A stretch of 22,020 nt of DNA, taken from the IMG/VR virus record IMGVR_UViG_3300017737_000096, positions 1 through 22,020 of that record; one strand, given 5' to 3'. Origin of the DNA: a virus. Shown here piece after piece: positions 1-20,432 of the stretch. A program made the translations under genes and the position numbers. Under the pieces are notes generated by a model that saw only the letters and a list, made by a program, of their open reading frames with translations, was not told the origin of the DNA and ran no database searches. Position 1 is the stretch's first letter; every line of letters begins with the position of its first letter.

Positions 1-192
1 AGGGACTCCACTGCCGTGATCTGTTCCAGAAGACACATTTAGACTATCGTTTAAAACGGCAGCATTAGTTGCAAAAACCCACGCCTTCGCCAACCCCTGT
101 TCCAGAGACATAGTAGCAGTAGCACCAGCCGTTACGGTGATGTCGTTGGCGGTGGTCTTGCCAGTGAGGGTATCTACTTTTATCTCAGACAT
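1..192 (-). CDS. Tail-fibre-type protein, N-terminal part (cut by window edge)
   Basis: The ATG at 192 opens a frame that stays open to the window edge, giving 64 residues beginning MSEIKVDTLTGKT. The N-terminus (MSE, basic residue, DT, hydrophobic, T) matches the start of the next gene upstream (192-572), and both continue with a block reading AKA(W/F)VF, so the two are tandem paralogues. The start codon shares its A with the upstream TGA stop (TGATG), which favours translational coupling. Short fibre modules of this kind sit after the main tail fibre in marine phages as I recall them; the exact role (adhesin tip, fibre cap) is inferred. The C-terminus lies outside the window. Confidence 0.75.
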   Translation of the reverse strand, partial: MSEIKVDTLTGKTTANDITVTAGATATMSLEQGLAKAWVFATNAAVLNDSLNVSSGTDHGSGVP

Positions 193-572
193 CAGGCTAA
201 GTCTCCGTGAAAAACAACGCAATTACTGTGCATATCGATTAAAGTTCCAGTACCGAAATTTGTAGAACCATAACCTTTGGTTGTTATGTTAGGGGTATCC
301 AAACCATTGCTATCTTCTCTGTTGGTGAAAACAACGCGAACATAGCCTGATGTGCCTGTCATAGCATAATAAGCATCATCAAAAGCATTCGTTACTGCAA
401 TGTCAAAATTTCCTGTGGCACTATCTGTGATTGAACTAACGCCGAAACTACCCCTGTTAATGTTGTTGGCTTGGTCATAAAAAACAAAAGCCTTCGCAGC
501 ACTTTGCTTAGTCAGGGTAACTGGACTGGTGCCATTACTCGCTGTGATTGTGTCTGCTCTTAACTCGCTCAT
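192..572 (-). CDS. Short tail-fibre-associated protein
   Basis: 126 residues, beginning MSELRADTITASNG, followed by Ser/Thr/Gly/Asn-rich sequence with alternating hydrophobic residues typical of beta-structured fibre proteins. No transmembrane segment or catalytic motif is visible. The start ATG overlaps the upstream stop as ATGA (569-572) and the stop overlaps the next start as TGATG. Its opening resembles the partial gene at 1-192, pointing to duplication. Position after the main fibre gene suggests a distal fibre or receptor-binding role. This is inferred from context and composition rather than from a recognised domain. Confidence 0.75.
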   Translation of the reverse strand: MSELRADTITASNGTSPVTLTKQSAAKAFVFYDQANNINRGSFGVSSITDSATGNFDIAVTNAFDDAYYAMTGTSGYVRVVFTNREDSNGLDTPNITTKGYGSTNFGTGTLIDMHSNCVVFHGDLA

Positions 573-1033
573 GCTATCACCAGATTACCGCCGGATGTTA
601 CCGTCAGTGTTACCCCTGTTGCTACAGTCAATGGCCCAGCAGCCAGTGCGTTTTCATCTGCGTCAATGGTTGTATTGGTGTCTAGCTGCTTCTGATGCAC
701 ACGGAAGATGTCACCGCCGCCAGCGTTAATCTCACCATTCTCACCCTTGAAGGTACCGCCGCCGCCGCTGTTGGTTGATGTTACAAGGGCTTTACCTTGA
801 AAGTTTACATAGAAGTCATCAGTAGCAACAATGCTGCCTGTCATAGATAAGCTAGTGCCGTTTACAGTGTATGCAACAGTAGGTTCCTGACGGACATTGT
901 TTACAAAAACTTCTATTTCTGCAGCATTACCTACGGGATGGTCTAGCGTAAAGGACGTACCAGTGCCACCAGTCAAGTCCTGATAGGCCATTGCTGTGGT
1001 TTGTACTGCTGGTGATAAGCCAAGATAAGGCAT
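569..1033 (-). CDS. Tail-fibre protein
   Basis: 154 residues. The N-terminus (MPYLGLSP) is of a kind that opens many phage fibre proteins. The middle contains a beta-rich stretch around residues 30-75 with an EVFVNN motif and LSMTGSI, and the end reads ATGVTLTVTSGGNLVI, a repeat-like strand common at fibre C-termini. An AAGGG ribosome binding site lies about 10 bases before the ATG. An exact sigma70 consensus promoter overlaps this start codon, so transcripts from it would begin inside codon 3 or 4; the in-frame ATG at 991 could then serve as a second start. Function is inferred from composition and location in the fibre cluster. Confidence 0.75.
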   Translation of the reverse strand: MPYLGLSPAVQTTAMAYQDLTGGTGTSFTLDHPVGNAAEIEVFVNNVRQEPTVAYTVNGTSLSMTGSIVATDDFYVNFQGKALVTSTNSGGGGTFKGENGEINAGGGDIFRVHQKQLDTNTTIDADENALAAGPLTVATGVTLTVTSGGNLVIA

Positions 1034-1060
1034 TATACTCTATCCCTTACGTAATGTCAA
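1032..1060 (-). promoter_or_regulatory. Exact sigma70 consensus promoter overlapping the fibre start codon
   Basis: Minus strand: TTGACA at 1060-1055, a 17-base spacer, and TATAAT at 1037-1032. The -10 box overlaps the ATG at 1033 and the -35 box lies in the last codons of the upstream gene (Leu-Asp-Ile-Thr, stop). Predicted transcription start is near 1025. It would feed the distal part of the fibre cluster. The match is 12 of 12, but part of it is constrained by coding, so activity is inferred. Confidence 0.6.
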
Positions 1061-1391
1061 GATGGCTGAGAACAACATCTGCAGATGATGCTGTATCAGA
1101 TGTTACAGTAAGTGTATCACCCGGCTCCATAACAACCTTTTGGTCTCCACCAACCACAACTAAAGAACCACCAACTGGAATAGGTGCTGCTTTAACAAGG
1201 TGAACATTGTCAACTGCACCGCTAGTACGTCCAGAGCCATTCAGCTTTACGTCTACAGTGATTTGAGTTGTCACGATGTTAGCAATACTTAGTCCAATAA
1301 TGGTGGTTTCTGTGCTTGATGGACAGGTGTATATGGTAGCTGCACCAGTGCCTACTGCCGTATCTGTCTCACATAAAAAAGCGTTTGCCAT
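1047..1391 (-). CDS. Beta-sandwich virion protein of the fibre cluster
   Basis: 114 residues, beginning MANAFLCETDTAVG. Motifs include IIGLSIAN near residues 31-38, ITVDVKLNGS, PIPVGGSLVVVGGDQKVV and a closing EPGDTLTV...ADVVLSHLDI, an alternating-strand pattern typical of small phage structural proteins. A GGAG ribosome binding site lies 7 bases upstream of the ATG, and an exact extended -10 promoter precedes it. The overall strand order resembles the protein at 20073-20432, so the two may share a fold. I recognise this as a recurrent small protein near phage fibres but not a named family. A decoration, fibre-cap or baseplate role is possible. Confidence 0.75.
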   Translation of the reverse strand: MANAFLCETDTAVGTGAATIYTCPSSTETTIIGLSIANIVTTQITVDVKLNGSGRTSGAVDNVHLVKAAPIPVGGSLVVVGGDQKVVMEPGDTLTVTSDTASSADVVLSHLDIT

Positions 1392-1413: not shown

Positions 1414-1442
1414 ATTATACCATATTTGTAATGGTTTGTCAA
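1414..1442 (-). promoter_or_regulatory. Exact sigma70 promoter with extended -10
   Basis: Minus strand: TTGACA at 1442-1437, exactly 17 bases, then TATAAT at 1419-1414, preceded by TGG (extended -10 element). It sits in a 61-base gap between the main fibre and the 114-residue gene, one of the few real intergenic spaces here. Transcription would start near 1407 and give a short leader containing the GGAG site of the next gene. All 12 bases match consensus outside coding sequence, making this the best-supported promoter in the window. Confidence 0.85.
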
Positions 1443-5960: not shown

Positions 5961-5994
5961 ATGAAAGTGAAGGGGCAAGTTGCCCTGCCCCCTC
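5961..5994 (-). terminator. Terminator-like hairpin after the decoration gene
   Basis: On the minus strand a 9-pair stem (arms at 5994-5986 and 5977-5969, one G-U pair, GC-rich) with an 8-base loop is followed by ACTTTCAT. The U tract is weak, so termination is probably partial. It lies in the 52-base gap after the decoration-like gene and before the adaptor, the place where a strong capsid transcript would be trimmed. Confidence 0.55.
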
Positions 5995-6000
5995 AACTAT

Positions 6001-10285: not shown

Positions 10286-10830
10286 ATCGGCTGCACCTGT
10301 ACTTTATCACGCATATTTTCTGGTATATCTGAAATATCTGCAACAAAAGATGTTTCGCCCATGTATGTAACCATACCTGCTTTTGCTCTATCTCTTGGGT
10401 CTTGCATCTGTTGTTGCTGGTTAGGTATAGTAGGTGAAACGTAACCACCTTGCTGCATATTATACTCTTCTTCATCTTCCACGTCAAGGTCATACATATC
10501 AAATGGCAAGTCATCTTCTACGGTAGCTTCTTCGCTATTACCCATCTGACCCATAGCTTCCATCTGTGCCAAGCCTTGCTTTGCTTCTTGACGCATACGC
10601 ATTAAATTTTCAAGACCGATATATCGCACTACATCTGCAGGAAAAACAAACTCGCCTTCACTCAACTGAGCAGGAATGTCATCACGTACTTCTTCACGCA
10701 ATGAACCGGGCGGTACTTCGTTGCCTGATTCCTCATCAACCATACCGCCTTCATCCATAAGGCCACCCTCATCAAAGCCACGTTCTACAGGCTCAAAGAG
10801 TTCCATTTGTGTTGCCATACGTTTAGCCAT
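10282..10830 (-). CDS. Acidic conserved phage protein of unknown function
   Basis: 182 residues. The N-terminal part has DEGGLMDEGGMVDEESG followed by EVPPGSLREEVRDDIPAQL and SEGEFVFPADVVRYIGLENLM, a block I recall as strongly conserved among marine short-tailed phages though unassigned. The middle is very acidic (near residues 100-122) and a Gln-rich patch (QQQQMQDPRDRAKAG) follows. A GAAGGA ribosome binding site lies about 7 bases before the ATG. It is translationally coupled to the 499-residue gene by an ATGA overlap. Location between portal and scaffold suggests a virion or assembly role; an internal protein released on infection is possible. Confidence 0.75.
   Translation of the reverse strand: MAKRMATQMELFEPVERGFDEGGLMDEGGMVDEESGNEVPPGSLREEVRDDIPAQLSEGEFVFPADVVRYIGLENLMRMRQEAKQGLAQMEAMGQMGNSEEATVEDDLPFDMYDLDVEDEEEYNMQQGGYVSPTIPNQQQQMQDPRDRAKAGMVTYMGETSFVADISDIPENMRDKVQVQPI
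10459..10487 (-). promoter_or_regulatory. Candidate intragenic sigma70 promoter
   Basis: Minus strand: TTGACG at 10487-10482, 17 bases, TATAAT at 10464-10459 (11 of 12). It lies inside the 182-residue gene, about 170 bases before the 499-residue gene it could drive. The acidic coding sequence (Leu-Asp-Val-Glu, Glu-Tyr-Asn-Met) accounts for the bases, so chance is possible. Confidence 0.35.
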
Positions 10831-17239: not shown

Positions 17240-17487
17240 TAGGCTCCCCGTCTGAACTTTGCGGTTTTCTTTGATATACTTTTAGGCTGCTTGACGAATT
17301 GCTTACCAGCACGAGTTCCTGCTCTTTTAGCACGAGTGGTGGCGGCGTATTCTTGCGGCGAAAGCGATTTGATAGCAGCCTCTGGTAAGTAACGCTCACC
17401 TGTTTTGGCGGAAGGTTTCCCACTCTTGGTTCTCCACTTTTGCTTCGTCCAGTTCTTTAAACTTTGTTGTGGTGATTTTAATGCCAT
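17239..17487 (-). CDS. 82-residue basic phage protein, possibly leaderless
   Basis: 82 residues, strongly basic. The core (KWRTKSGKPSAKTGERYLP, then SLSPQEYAATTRAKRAGTR and KQFVKQPKSISKKTAKFR) is a widespread short phage protein that I recognise from marine phages without a firm function. No ribosome binding site precedes the ATG; the upstream promoter puts the transcription start at or beside the A of the ATG, so the transcript may be leaderless. It begins 20 bases after the coiled-coil membrane gene and couples to the holin by TAATG. DNA- or RNA-binding is plausible from charge. Confidence 0.8.
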   Translation of the reverse strand: MALKSPQQSLKNWTKQKWRTKSGKPSAKTGERYLPEAAIKSLSPQEYAATTRAKRAGTRAGKQFVKQPKSISKKTAKFRRGA

Positions 17488-17493
17488 GAATAA

Positions 17494-17522
17494 GTTATAC
17501 CATTATCCTACACAATTGTCAA
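17494..17522 (-). promoter_or_regulatory. Sigma70 promoter with extended -10 before the lysis genes
   Basis: Minus strand: TTGACA at 17522-17517, 17 bases, TATAAC at 17499-17494, with TGG before the -10 (extended element). 11 of 12 bases match. The -35 is read as Leu-Thr at the end of the upstream gene. Only 6 bases separate the -10 from the ATG at 17487. It would supply the holin, lysozyme and terminase genes. Confidence 0.75.
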
Positions 17523-18018: not shown

Positions 18019-19098
18019 TTATGCTGCCAGTGCGGGATTACTAGCATCCAGTTGCATCCACTTAGACCACTCTGCGTAGTAGTGGCGCATACCTACTTCA
18101 TCGTGGATTGTGCTATTTTCATGTCGTCCATGCAAGATGTTACGGGGTTCTGTACCTTCTCGCATTGTAGTACCTTGACCTGCGACACCAATCAGGTCTT
18201 CATGTAAGTTTCTACCAAACGGTCCCCAGATTGAGTTGTGATGTTTGATACGTGTCTGTCGTTCTTCAGGGGTATCTTTCTTTAAGCCGTAGCCACGGAA
18301 CTCAATTAGTACTTTGTTTGGTCCTAGCGGTGTTACGCTGTCACTACGATACGCACTGCCACGTAGGTTAAAGTTGTAGCCGGGAAATAAGTCTACCATA
18401 TACCACTGGTTAGGTGGAAGGTTAGGAAAACTGAGTTCTCCTCTGTCTTCAAAACCATCGTACTCTTCGTAGTTAACTGTAAAGCTACTGACGTTGACGT
18501 GTCCGTTATCGAATGGAATATTTTTTCTAGCAAAGTACTCATCGTTAAATCCTGACACACGGTTAAAGTAATGCATAAAGTCGTGGTAGAACTCTGAGTT
18601 AGTATCGTGCCACAATTTGTAGTTAGTGTCTATTACTGCCTTGTGATAGTGAAACACTTCCATCTCTTCAGTATCAATGGCATCAGCAATACAATCAAAC
18701 GCACCTGCTGTCCATTCATCTACGCTTTGTGTAGGGTTAGGGTCTAGTGTCACCCACACCATTCCGCCATGTTTTACTTCTGTGTTAAGTTTTACAAAGT
18801 CTTGCATTATAAATTGAACACGAGACATTGACCCAGAAGGAGTGGTGTGTTTATCCGTGTTGAGGTATCCCTGAATATAGTCACCATTGTTTATAGCTAT
18901 TACAGGTTTACCCGCAATAGATGTAGTTTTAAAATTACCCGCTTCTGGTAATTCAGACTTATGACACATAGGCACCCAAACTTTAGAAAATATGTTTTCT
19001 TGTTCCTGCTCATACAGGCTGTGGTCAGAATATATAAGTGAATTGATGTGTTCTACTTTAGGTTTCTTTGTCCAGTCTTTATGATTACGTGGTGCCAT
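18019..19098 (-). CDS. Rieske-type oxygenase homologue lacking the Rieske cluster
   Basis: 359 residues, against about 400-450 in ring-hydroxylating oxygenase alpha subunits. Residues 23-70 follow the family N-terminus (YEQEQENIFSKVWVPMCHKS, then ELPEAGNF and IAGKPVIAI). Where CxH and CxxH should bind 2Fe-2S, residues 78-118 run from GYLNTDKHTTPSGS straight to HGGMVWVTLDP; only two cysteines (45, 136) exist and neither fits. The catalytic domain remains: NYKLWHDTNSEFYHDFMH at 159-176 gives His172 and His176, Glu169 as the bridging acid, and Asp301 in HEDLIGVAGQG as the third ligand. So a mononuclear iron site is plausible but its normal electron supply is gone. It is intact, without frameshift, embedded in the late operon. 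Substrate unknown; a host-metabolism gene or a non-catalytic protein are both open. Confidence 0.85.
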   Translation of the reverse strand: MAPRNHKDWTKKPKVEHINSLIYSDHSLYEQEQENIFSKVWVPMCHKSELPEAGNFKTTSIAGKPVIAINNGDYIQGYLNTDKHTTPSGSMSRVQFIMQDFVKLNTEVKHGGMVWVTLDPNPTQSVDEWTAGAFDCIADAIDTEEMEVFHYHKAVIDTNYKLWHDTNSEFYHDFMHYFNRVSGFNDEYFARKNIPFDNGHVNVSSFTVNYEEYDGFEDRGELSFPNLPPNQWYMVDLFPGYNFNLRGSAYRSDSVTPLGPNKVLIEFRGYGLKKDTPEERQTRIKHHNSIWGPFGRNLHEDLIGVAGQGTTMREGTEPRNILHGRHENSTIHDEVGMRHYYAEWSKWMQLDASNPALAA

Positions 19099-20072: not shown

Positions 20073-20432
20073 CTATGCATTAGGGTCAAAGAACTCTTCA
20101 GCCGCCACTACAACTGTCAACTCATTTGCTGTGCCAGCAGCTACAATTATCTTATCACCTGCGTGTATGTACAAGGGTTTATCTACCGTGAATATATTTT
20201 CAGAAGACTTACCAGATACATTATGTGCAGAAAACAGTGTATGCGTTGTAGTTGTGGCAGCTTCGTGATACTTGAGTGTGTAAGCTATATTGCCAGAGTT
20301 GTCGTTGCTAATCATCAAGTTTTCTACGTGAGATGAAAAGTTTGCAGGTACGACATAGCAATCAGTGTCACCTGTAGTTGTAAGTGCTGTTGCGTGTGTT
20401 ACAAACTTTGAGCCGCCATTTAATACGGGCAT
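20073..20432 (-). CDS. Beta-rich structural-type protein
   Basis: 119 residues with no charged helices, Thr/Asn/Ala-rich strands (THATALTTTGDTDCYVVPA, ENLMISNDNSGNIAYTLKYH) and an end reading YIHAGDKIIVAAGTANELTVVV. The strand order and the PGD/AGD-like turn before the final strands match the protein at 1047-1391 in the fibre cluster, so a shared fold is likely though similarity is low. The ATG is in a TAATG with the 39-residue gene. A minor virion or decoration protein is the best inference. Confidence 0.7.
   Translation of the reverse strand: MPVLNGGSKFVTHATALTTTGDTDCYVVPANFSSHVENLMISNDNSGNIAYTLKYHEAATTTTHTLFSAHNVSGKSSENIFTVDKPLYIHAGDKIIVAAGTANELTVVVAAEEFFDPNA

Follow-up and report, generated by a model that had tools for sequence, protein, structure and literature searches.

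A perfect match to the sigma-70 promoter consensus runs across the junction of two genes in a viral genome and overlaps the start codon of a tail-fibre gene. Does this site work as a promoter, or is it a by-product of the codons and the translation start that it overlaps? Here, we addressed this question in the window (the whole stretch of 22,020 nt that was analysed) and in related viral sequences.

Sequence and geometry of the site

The site, hereafter promoter 2 (TTGACATTACGTAAGGGATAGAGTATAAT; 1060..1032, minus strand), reads TTGACA-17-TATAAT with zero mismatches (12/12, spacer 17), in agreement with the sigma-70 (RpoD) consensus of TTGACA and TATAAT separated by 16-18 bases. Its -35 hexamer TTGACA (1055..1060, minus strand) lies within CTT-GAC-ATT (L-D-I) at the 3' end of a 114-aa virion-protein gene (1047..1391, minus strand), whose last codons are CTT GAC ATT ACG TAA (L D I T stop). 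The gap from this gene to the following 154-aa tail-fibre gene (569..1033, minus strand) is 13 bases long (GGGATAGAGTATA), and the final two bases of the -10 hexamer TATAAT (1032..1037, minus strand) are the AT of the fibre ATG (1031..1033, minus strand), which gives TATAATG. The overlap of an exact promoter match with the fibre start codon, first noticed in a sequence-only reading, was therefore confirmed. Based on promoter geometry, transcription would start at 1025..1026 (minus strand), 6-7 bases past the -10 hexamer, and such transcripts would, as that reading had anticipated, lack the start codon of the 154-aa fibre gene.

Only two 12/12 sites were found in the window, promoter 2 and a second one termed promoter 1 (1442..1414), both on the minus strand. 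Their starts are 382 bases apart, close to the earlier estimate of about 380. Promoter 2 lacks the extended -10 motif (TGG) that promoter 1 usually has. Neither an Rfam family nor a tRNA was matched in scans of the whole window, which leaves the promoter reading without a competing RNA element.

The 154-aa gene was assigned to phrog_18673 (tail fiber protein, E 4.1e-8) and the 126-aa gene behind it (192..572, minus strand) to phrog_11355 (tail fiber protein). The ATG of the 126-aa gene overlaps the stop of the 154-aa gene, and it is the first complete gene translatable from a promoter 2 transcript. The 114-aa gene belongs to phrog_1276 / phrog_26609, and its homolog in Puniceispirillum phage HMO-2011 is gp42, annotated as a 'putative structural protein'. 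Its predicted structure bears a general resemblance to jelly-roll-like beta folds at low confidence (mean pLDDT 66), and a comparison with PDB sequences gave no match. Another gene of 119 aa (20073..20432, minus strand) also matches phrog_1276, the family of the 114-aa gene after promoter 1, and is possibly a paralog of the latter.

The phage and its expected polymerase

The window belongs to an HMO-2011-type marine podovirus. It shares 87.7% identity with HMO-2011 in the portal protein, and its gene order is that of the leftward structural module of HMO-2011 (amidase, fibre, gp42-like, fibres), in which the fibre array extends from gp43 to gp28. A ring-hydroxylating oxygenase gene (18019..19098, minus strand; Pfam PF00848) is located where HMO-2011 carries methanesulfonate monooxygenase. 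Since the annotation of HMO-2011 contains neither an RNA polymerase nor a sigma factor, the host polymerase is the expected reader of promoters in these phages.

HMO-2011-type phages are described as a dominant and widespread marine group (PMC9038755), and promoters and RNA polymerase are not mentioned in that paper. A pelagiphage transcriptome paper (PMC12753301) was not informative. Our literature search found no paper describing the promoters of HMO-2011-type phages and none on the overlap of a promoter with a start codon.

Promoter 1 is conserved upstream of the fibre array

Promoter 1 (1414..1442, minus strand) reads TTGACA-17-TATAAT with an extended -10 (TGG). Among relatives of the 114-aa gene, 106 upstream haplotypes could be scored; 63 of them have promoter 1 intact (12/12), and their 17-base spacers come in 31 different sequences, i.e., the boxes are kept while the spacer diverges, as expected of a sigma-70 promoter. 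The 43 haplotypes without it include a single 9/12 remnant at 17-base spacing, and in many others the gap is simply closed. In five relatives (L134, L083, L010, L086 and L088), promoter 1 and its gap are missing as a block and the upstream stop lies a few bases from the 114-aa ATG. Promoter 1 thus seems to come and go as a whole.

HMO-2011 itself (NC_021864) carries promoter 1 at 31754-31726, before gp42, and has only one other perfect site, at 53396-53368, upstream of gp71 at the head of the leftward gene block. TGG precedes the -10 hexamer in most copies of promoter 1 and in this head site. Judged by conservation in sequence, promoter 1 is clearly a genuine promoter, and together these sites look like a conserved host-type promoter class that would start and re-start the transcription of structural genes. 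A strong terminator-like hairpin (5995..5968, minus strand; 12 pairs, 7 of them G-C) is present between the adaptor gene and a 159-aa gene that adjoins the capsid gene. If transcription ended there in part, re-initiation at promoter 1 would be useful.

One further promoter-like site was noticed in the window at 17522..17494 (minus strand). It reads TTGACA-17-TATAAC with an extended -10 (TGG) and ends 6 bases before the ATG at 17487 of a conserved 82-aa gene (phrog_14910) with a weak ribosome-binding site, which makes it a candidate promoter for a leaderless mRNA. Its boxes are retained in one relative (L241) with an altered spacer and were not found in the other relatives examined.

Promoter 2 is restricted to one lineage

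We compared 94 haplotypes of the junction that links the 114-aa gene to the fibre gene. TATAATG is present in only 12 of them, all with a 13-nt gap, and the remaining 82 have no -10 hexamer; these other junctions mostly have gaps of 9-11 bases, such as GGAGTAGGCATG or GGATTAGCCAATG. Promoter 2 is absent from HMO-2011, as from most relatives. The sequence-only reading had held that synonymous divergence destroying the boxes in relatives would speak against the promoter. This is what is seen in most relatives, but the lineage of 12 haplotypes retains TATAATG while other gap bases vary. The -35 hexamer is TTGACA in 10 of the 12 and TTGATA in two. When all viral contigs were scanned for any 13-base gap after HLDIT-stop, no decayed form of the junction of this lineage was found.

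A diverged member (L144; 114-aa protein 77% identical, 53% of shared codons identical) still has promoter 2 at 12/12 although four of the nine other gap bases and almost half of the synonymous codons have changed, which is weak evidence of retention. Promoter 1 was present in all 16 haplotypes that carry promoter 2 and have readable upstream sequence.

Chance and coding constraint

In 73 low-redundancy relative loci (450 kb), there are 51 12/12 matches at a 17-base spacer, all on the coding strand, compared with one match altogether when the spacer is 14-16 or 18-20 bases long. A perfect match at 17 bases is thus not background in these phages. However, the 51 sites are homologous copies of a few sites and therefore do not demonstrate selection on promoter 2. 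A larger, redundant set of 876 kb yielded almost no perfect sites other than promoters 1 and 2.

The main rival explanation, which we consider a serious possibility, is that promoter 2 is incidental: its -35 hexamer would reflect the codons chosen for SHLDIT, the conserved end of the 114-aa protein, and its -10 hexamer the A/T-rich ribosome-binding context before the ATG. The match would then serve no selected function and have little effect. Other constraints indeed fix six of the 12 matched bases: the Leu-Asp-Ile codons dictate T.GA.A, and the start codon dictates AT. A figure of 1 in 4^12 therefore exaggerates the surprise. Of the 64 LDI-ending junctions without TATAATG, 21 have TTGACA as well; because TTGACA is so common without a -10 hexamer outside the lineage, the -35 hexamer is mostly ordinary codon choice. 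Among phages with promoter 1, the association of TTGACA with TATAATG was not significant (9/11 vs 17/32, Fisher's p=0.15; haplotypes defined on a slightly shorter stretch than in the set of 94). Compared with other codons of the lineage, those for Leu and Asp under the -35 hexamer showed no excess constraint: Leu is invariant, as many others are, and Asp is variable.

Near-perfect promoter-like sequences in coding DNA favor the same explanation. An 11/12 match in the window lies where an acidic protein stretch is encoded (10487..10459), with a 12/12 version in one relative (G004). In 10 of 11 distinct copies, the DNA for the LTSAVLNGTI motif of sibling fibre genes reads TTGACA-17-TACAAT, both in HMO-2011 (NC_021864, 32510-32482; about 1689 in L237) and in relatives; the box codons are nearly constant and the codons between them vary, which may reflect conserved codons or a promoter inside the gene. 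Recombination could, in addition, have spread a common junction block. Against an incidental origin stand the great rarity of perfect 12/12 sites at 17 bases elsewhere in these phages and the lack of any decayed TATAATG in the 13-nt-gap lineage. The case shows that a promoter match built by protein and start codons is less improbable than it looks.

Proposed role of promoter 2

The explanation we prefer, at about even odds (roughly 0.5), is that promoter 2 is a candidate lineage-specific, promoter-competent site at which the host housekeeping polymerase would start some transcripts, adding mRNA for the downstream fibre genes. An incidental origin is almost as likely. The perfect hexamers and the optimal 17-base spacing argue for activity. 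In the proposed scenario, the 13-nt gap placed TATA before the fibre ATG, exactly 17 bases from the codon-derived TTGACA, and the host housekeeping RNA polymerase may then start some transcripts near base 1025. Promoter 1 would be the main source of fibre transcripts. Because promoter 2 transcripts would lack the 154-aa start codon, they would mainly serve as extra mRNA for the 126-aa fibre gene and later genes, with a probably modest boost of these downstream fibres. A conserved promoter 1 before the fibre array and a lineage-specific second promoter inside it would give a simple picture in which fibre amounts are set by the host RNA polymerase alone.

It appears unlikely that promoter 2 is selected as a means of adjusting dosage through mRNA that bypasses the first fibre gene. 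If so, one phage lineage would make more of the later fibres in proportion to the 114-aa and 154-aa proteins.

It is very improbable that the junction is mainly a recombination linker for fibre gene swaps on which the promoter match rides along. In L131, L187, L008 and L031, near-identical junction blocks do sit between diverged versions of the 114-aa gene and differing fibre alleles, but swapped alleles are also joined by junctions with other gaps, so that the sequence of the promoter 2 junction is not necessary for exchange.

The sequence-only reading had further suggested that promoter 2 transcripts could use an in-frame ATG at residue 15 of the 154-aa fibre (989..991, minus strand) or express only the downstream fibre genes. 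The latter part stands as a possible boost, with a genuine promoter of the same direction upstream, while use of ATG 991 was not supported. Its Shine-Dalgarno pairing with the 16S tail is -2.0 kcal/mol, which is weaker than the median of random 20-mers (-3.8) and than the pairing of ATG 1033 (-5.2). Nor is this methionine conserved with the promoter: it is missing in eight of the 12 TATAATG fibres (one of which has GTG at that residue), present in the other four, and also present in 10 fibres without TATAATG. ATG 991 thus goes with the LSPAVQTTAM fibre allele and not with promoter 2. A switch between two fibre forms, the shorter one lacking 14 residues, is therefore scarcely credible: although ATG 991 keeps the frame and lies past the predicted transcript start, it has neither a ribosome-binding site nor co-conservation with the promoter, and its use would cost the MPYLG-like N-terminus, which is conserved across fibre alleles and is likely a virion anchor.

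Comparison with known promoters

The closest known counterpart is the HMO-2011 promoter before gp42 (NC_021864, 31754-31726), which shares with promoter 2 its hexamers, 17-base spacer, direction and location in the fibre array. This is promoter 1, which occupies its own intergenic gap, usually has TGG before the -10 hexamer and is conserved in diverged relatives, whereas promoter 2 lies across two genes and is confined to one lineage. Intragenic sigma-70 promoters within operons have consensus boxes in or at the edge of coding sequence and supply extra mRNA for downstream genes. The predicted promoter 2 resembles them in the position of its boxes at a coding edge; unlike such promoters in general, its -10 hexamer would remove the start codon of the gene that it overlaps.
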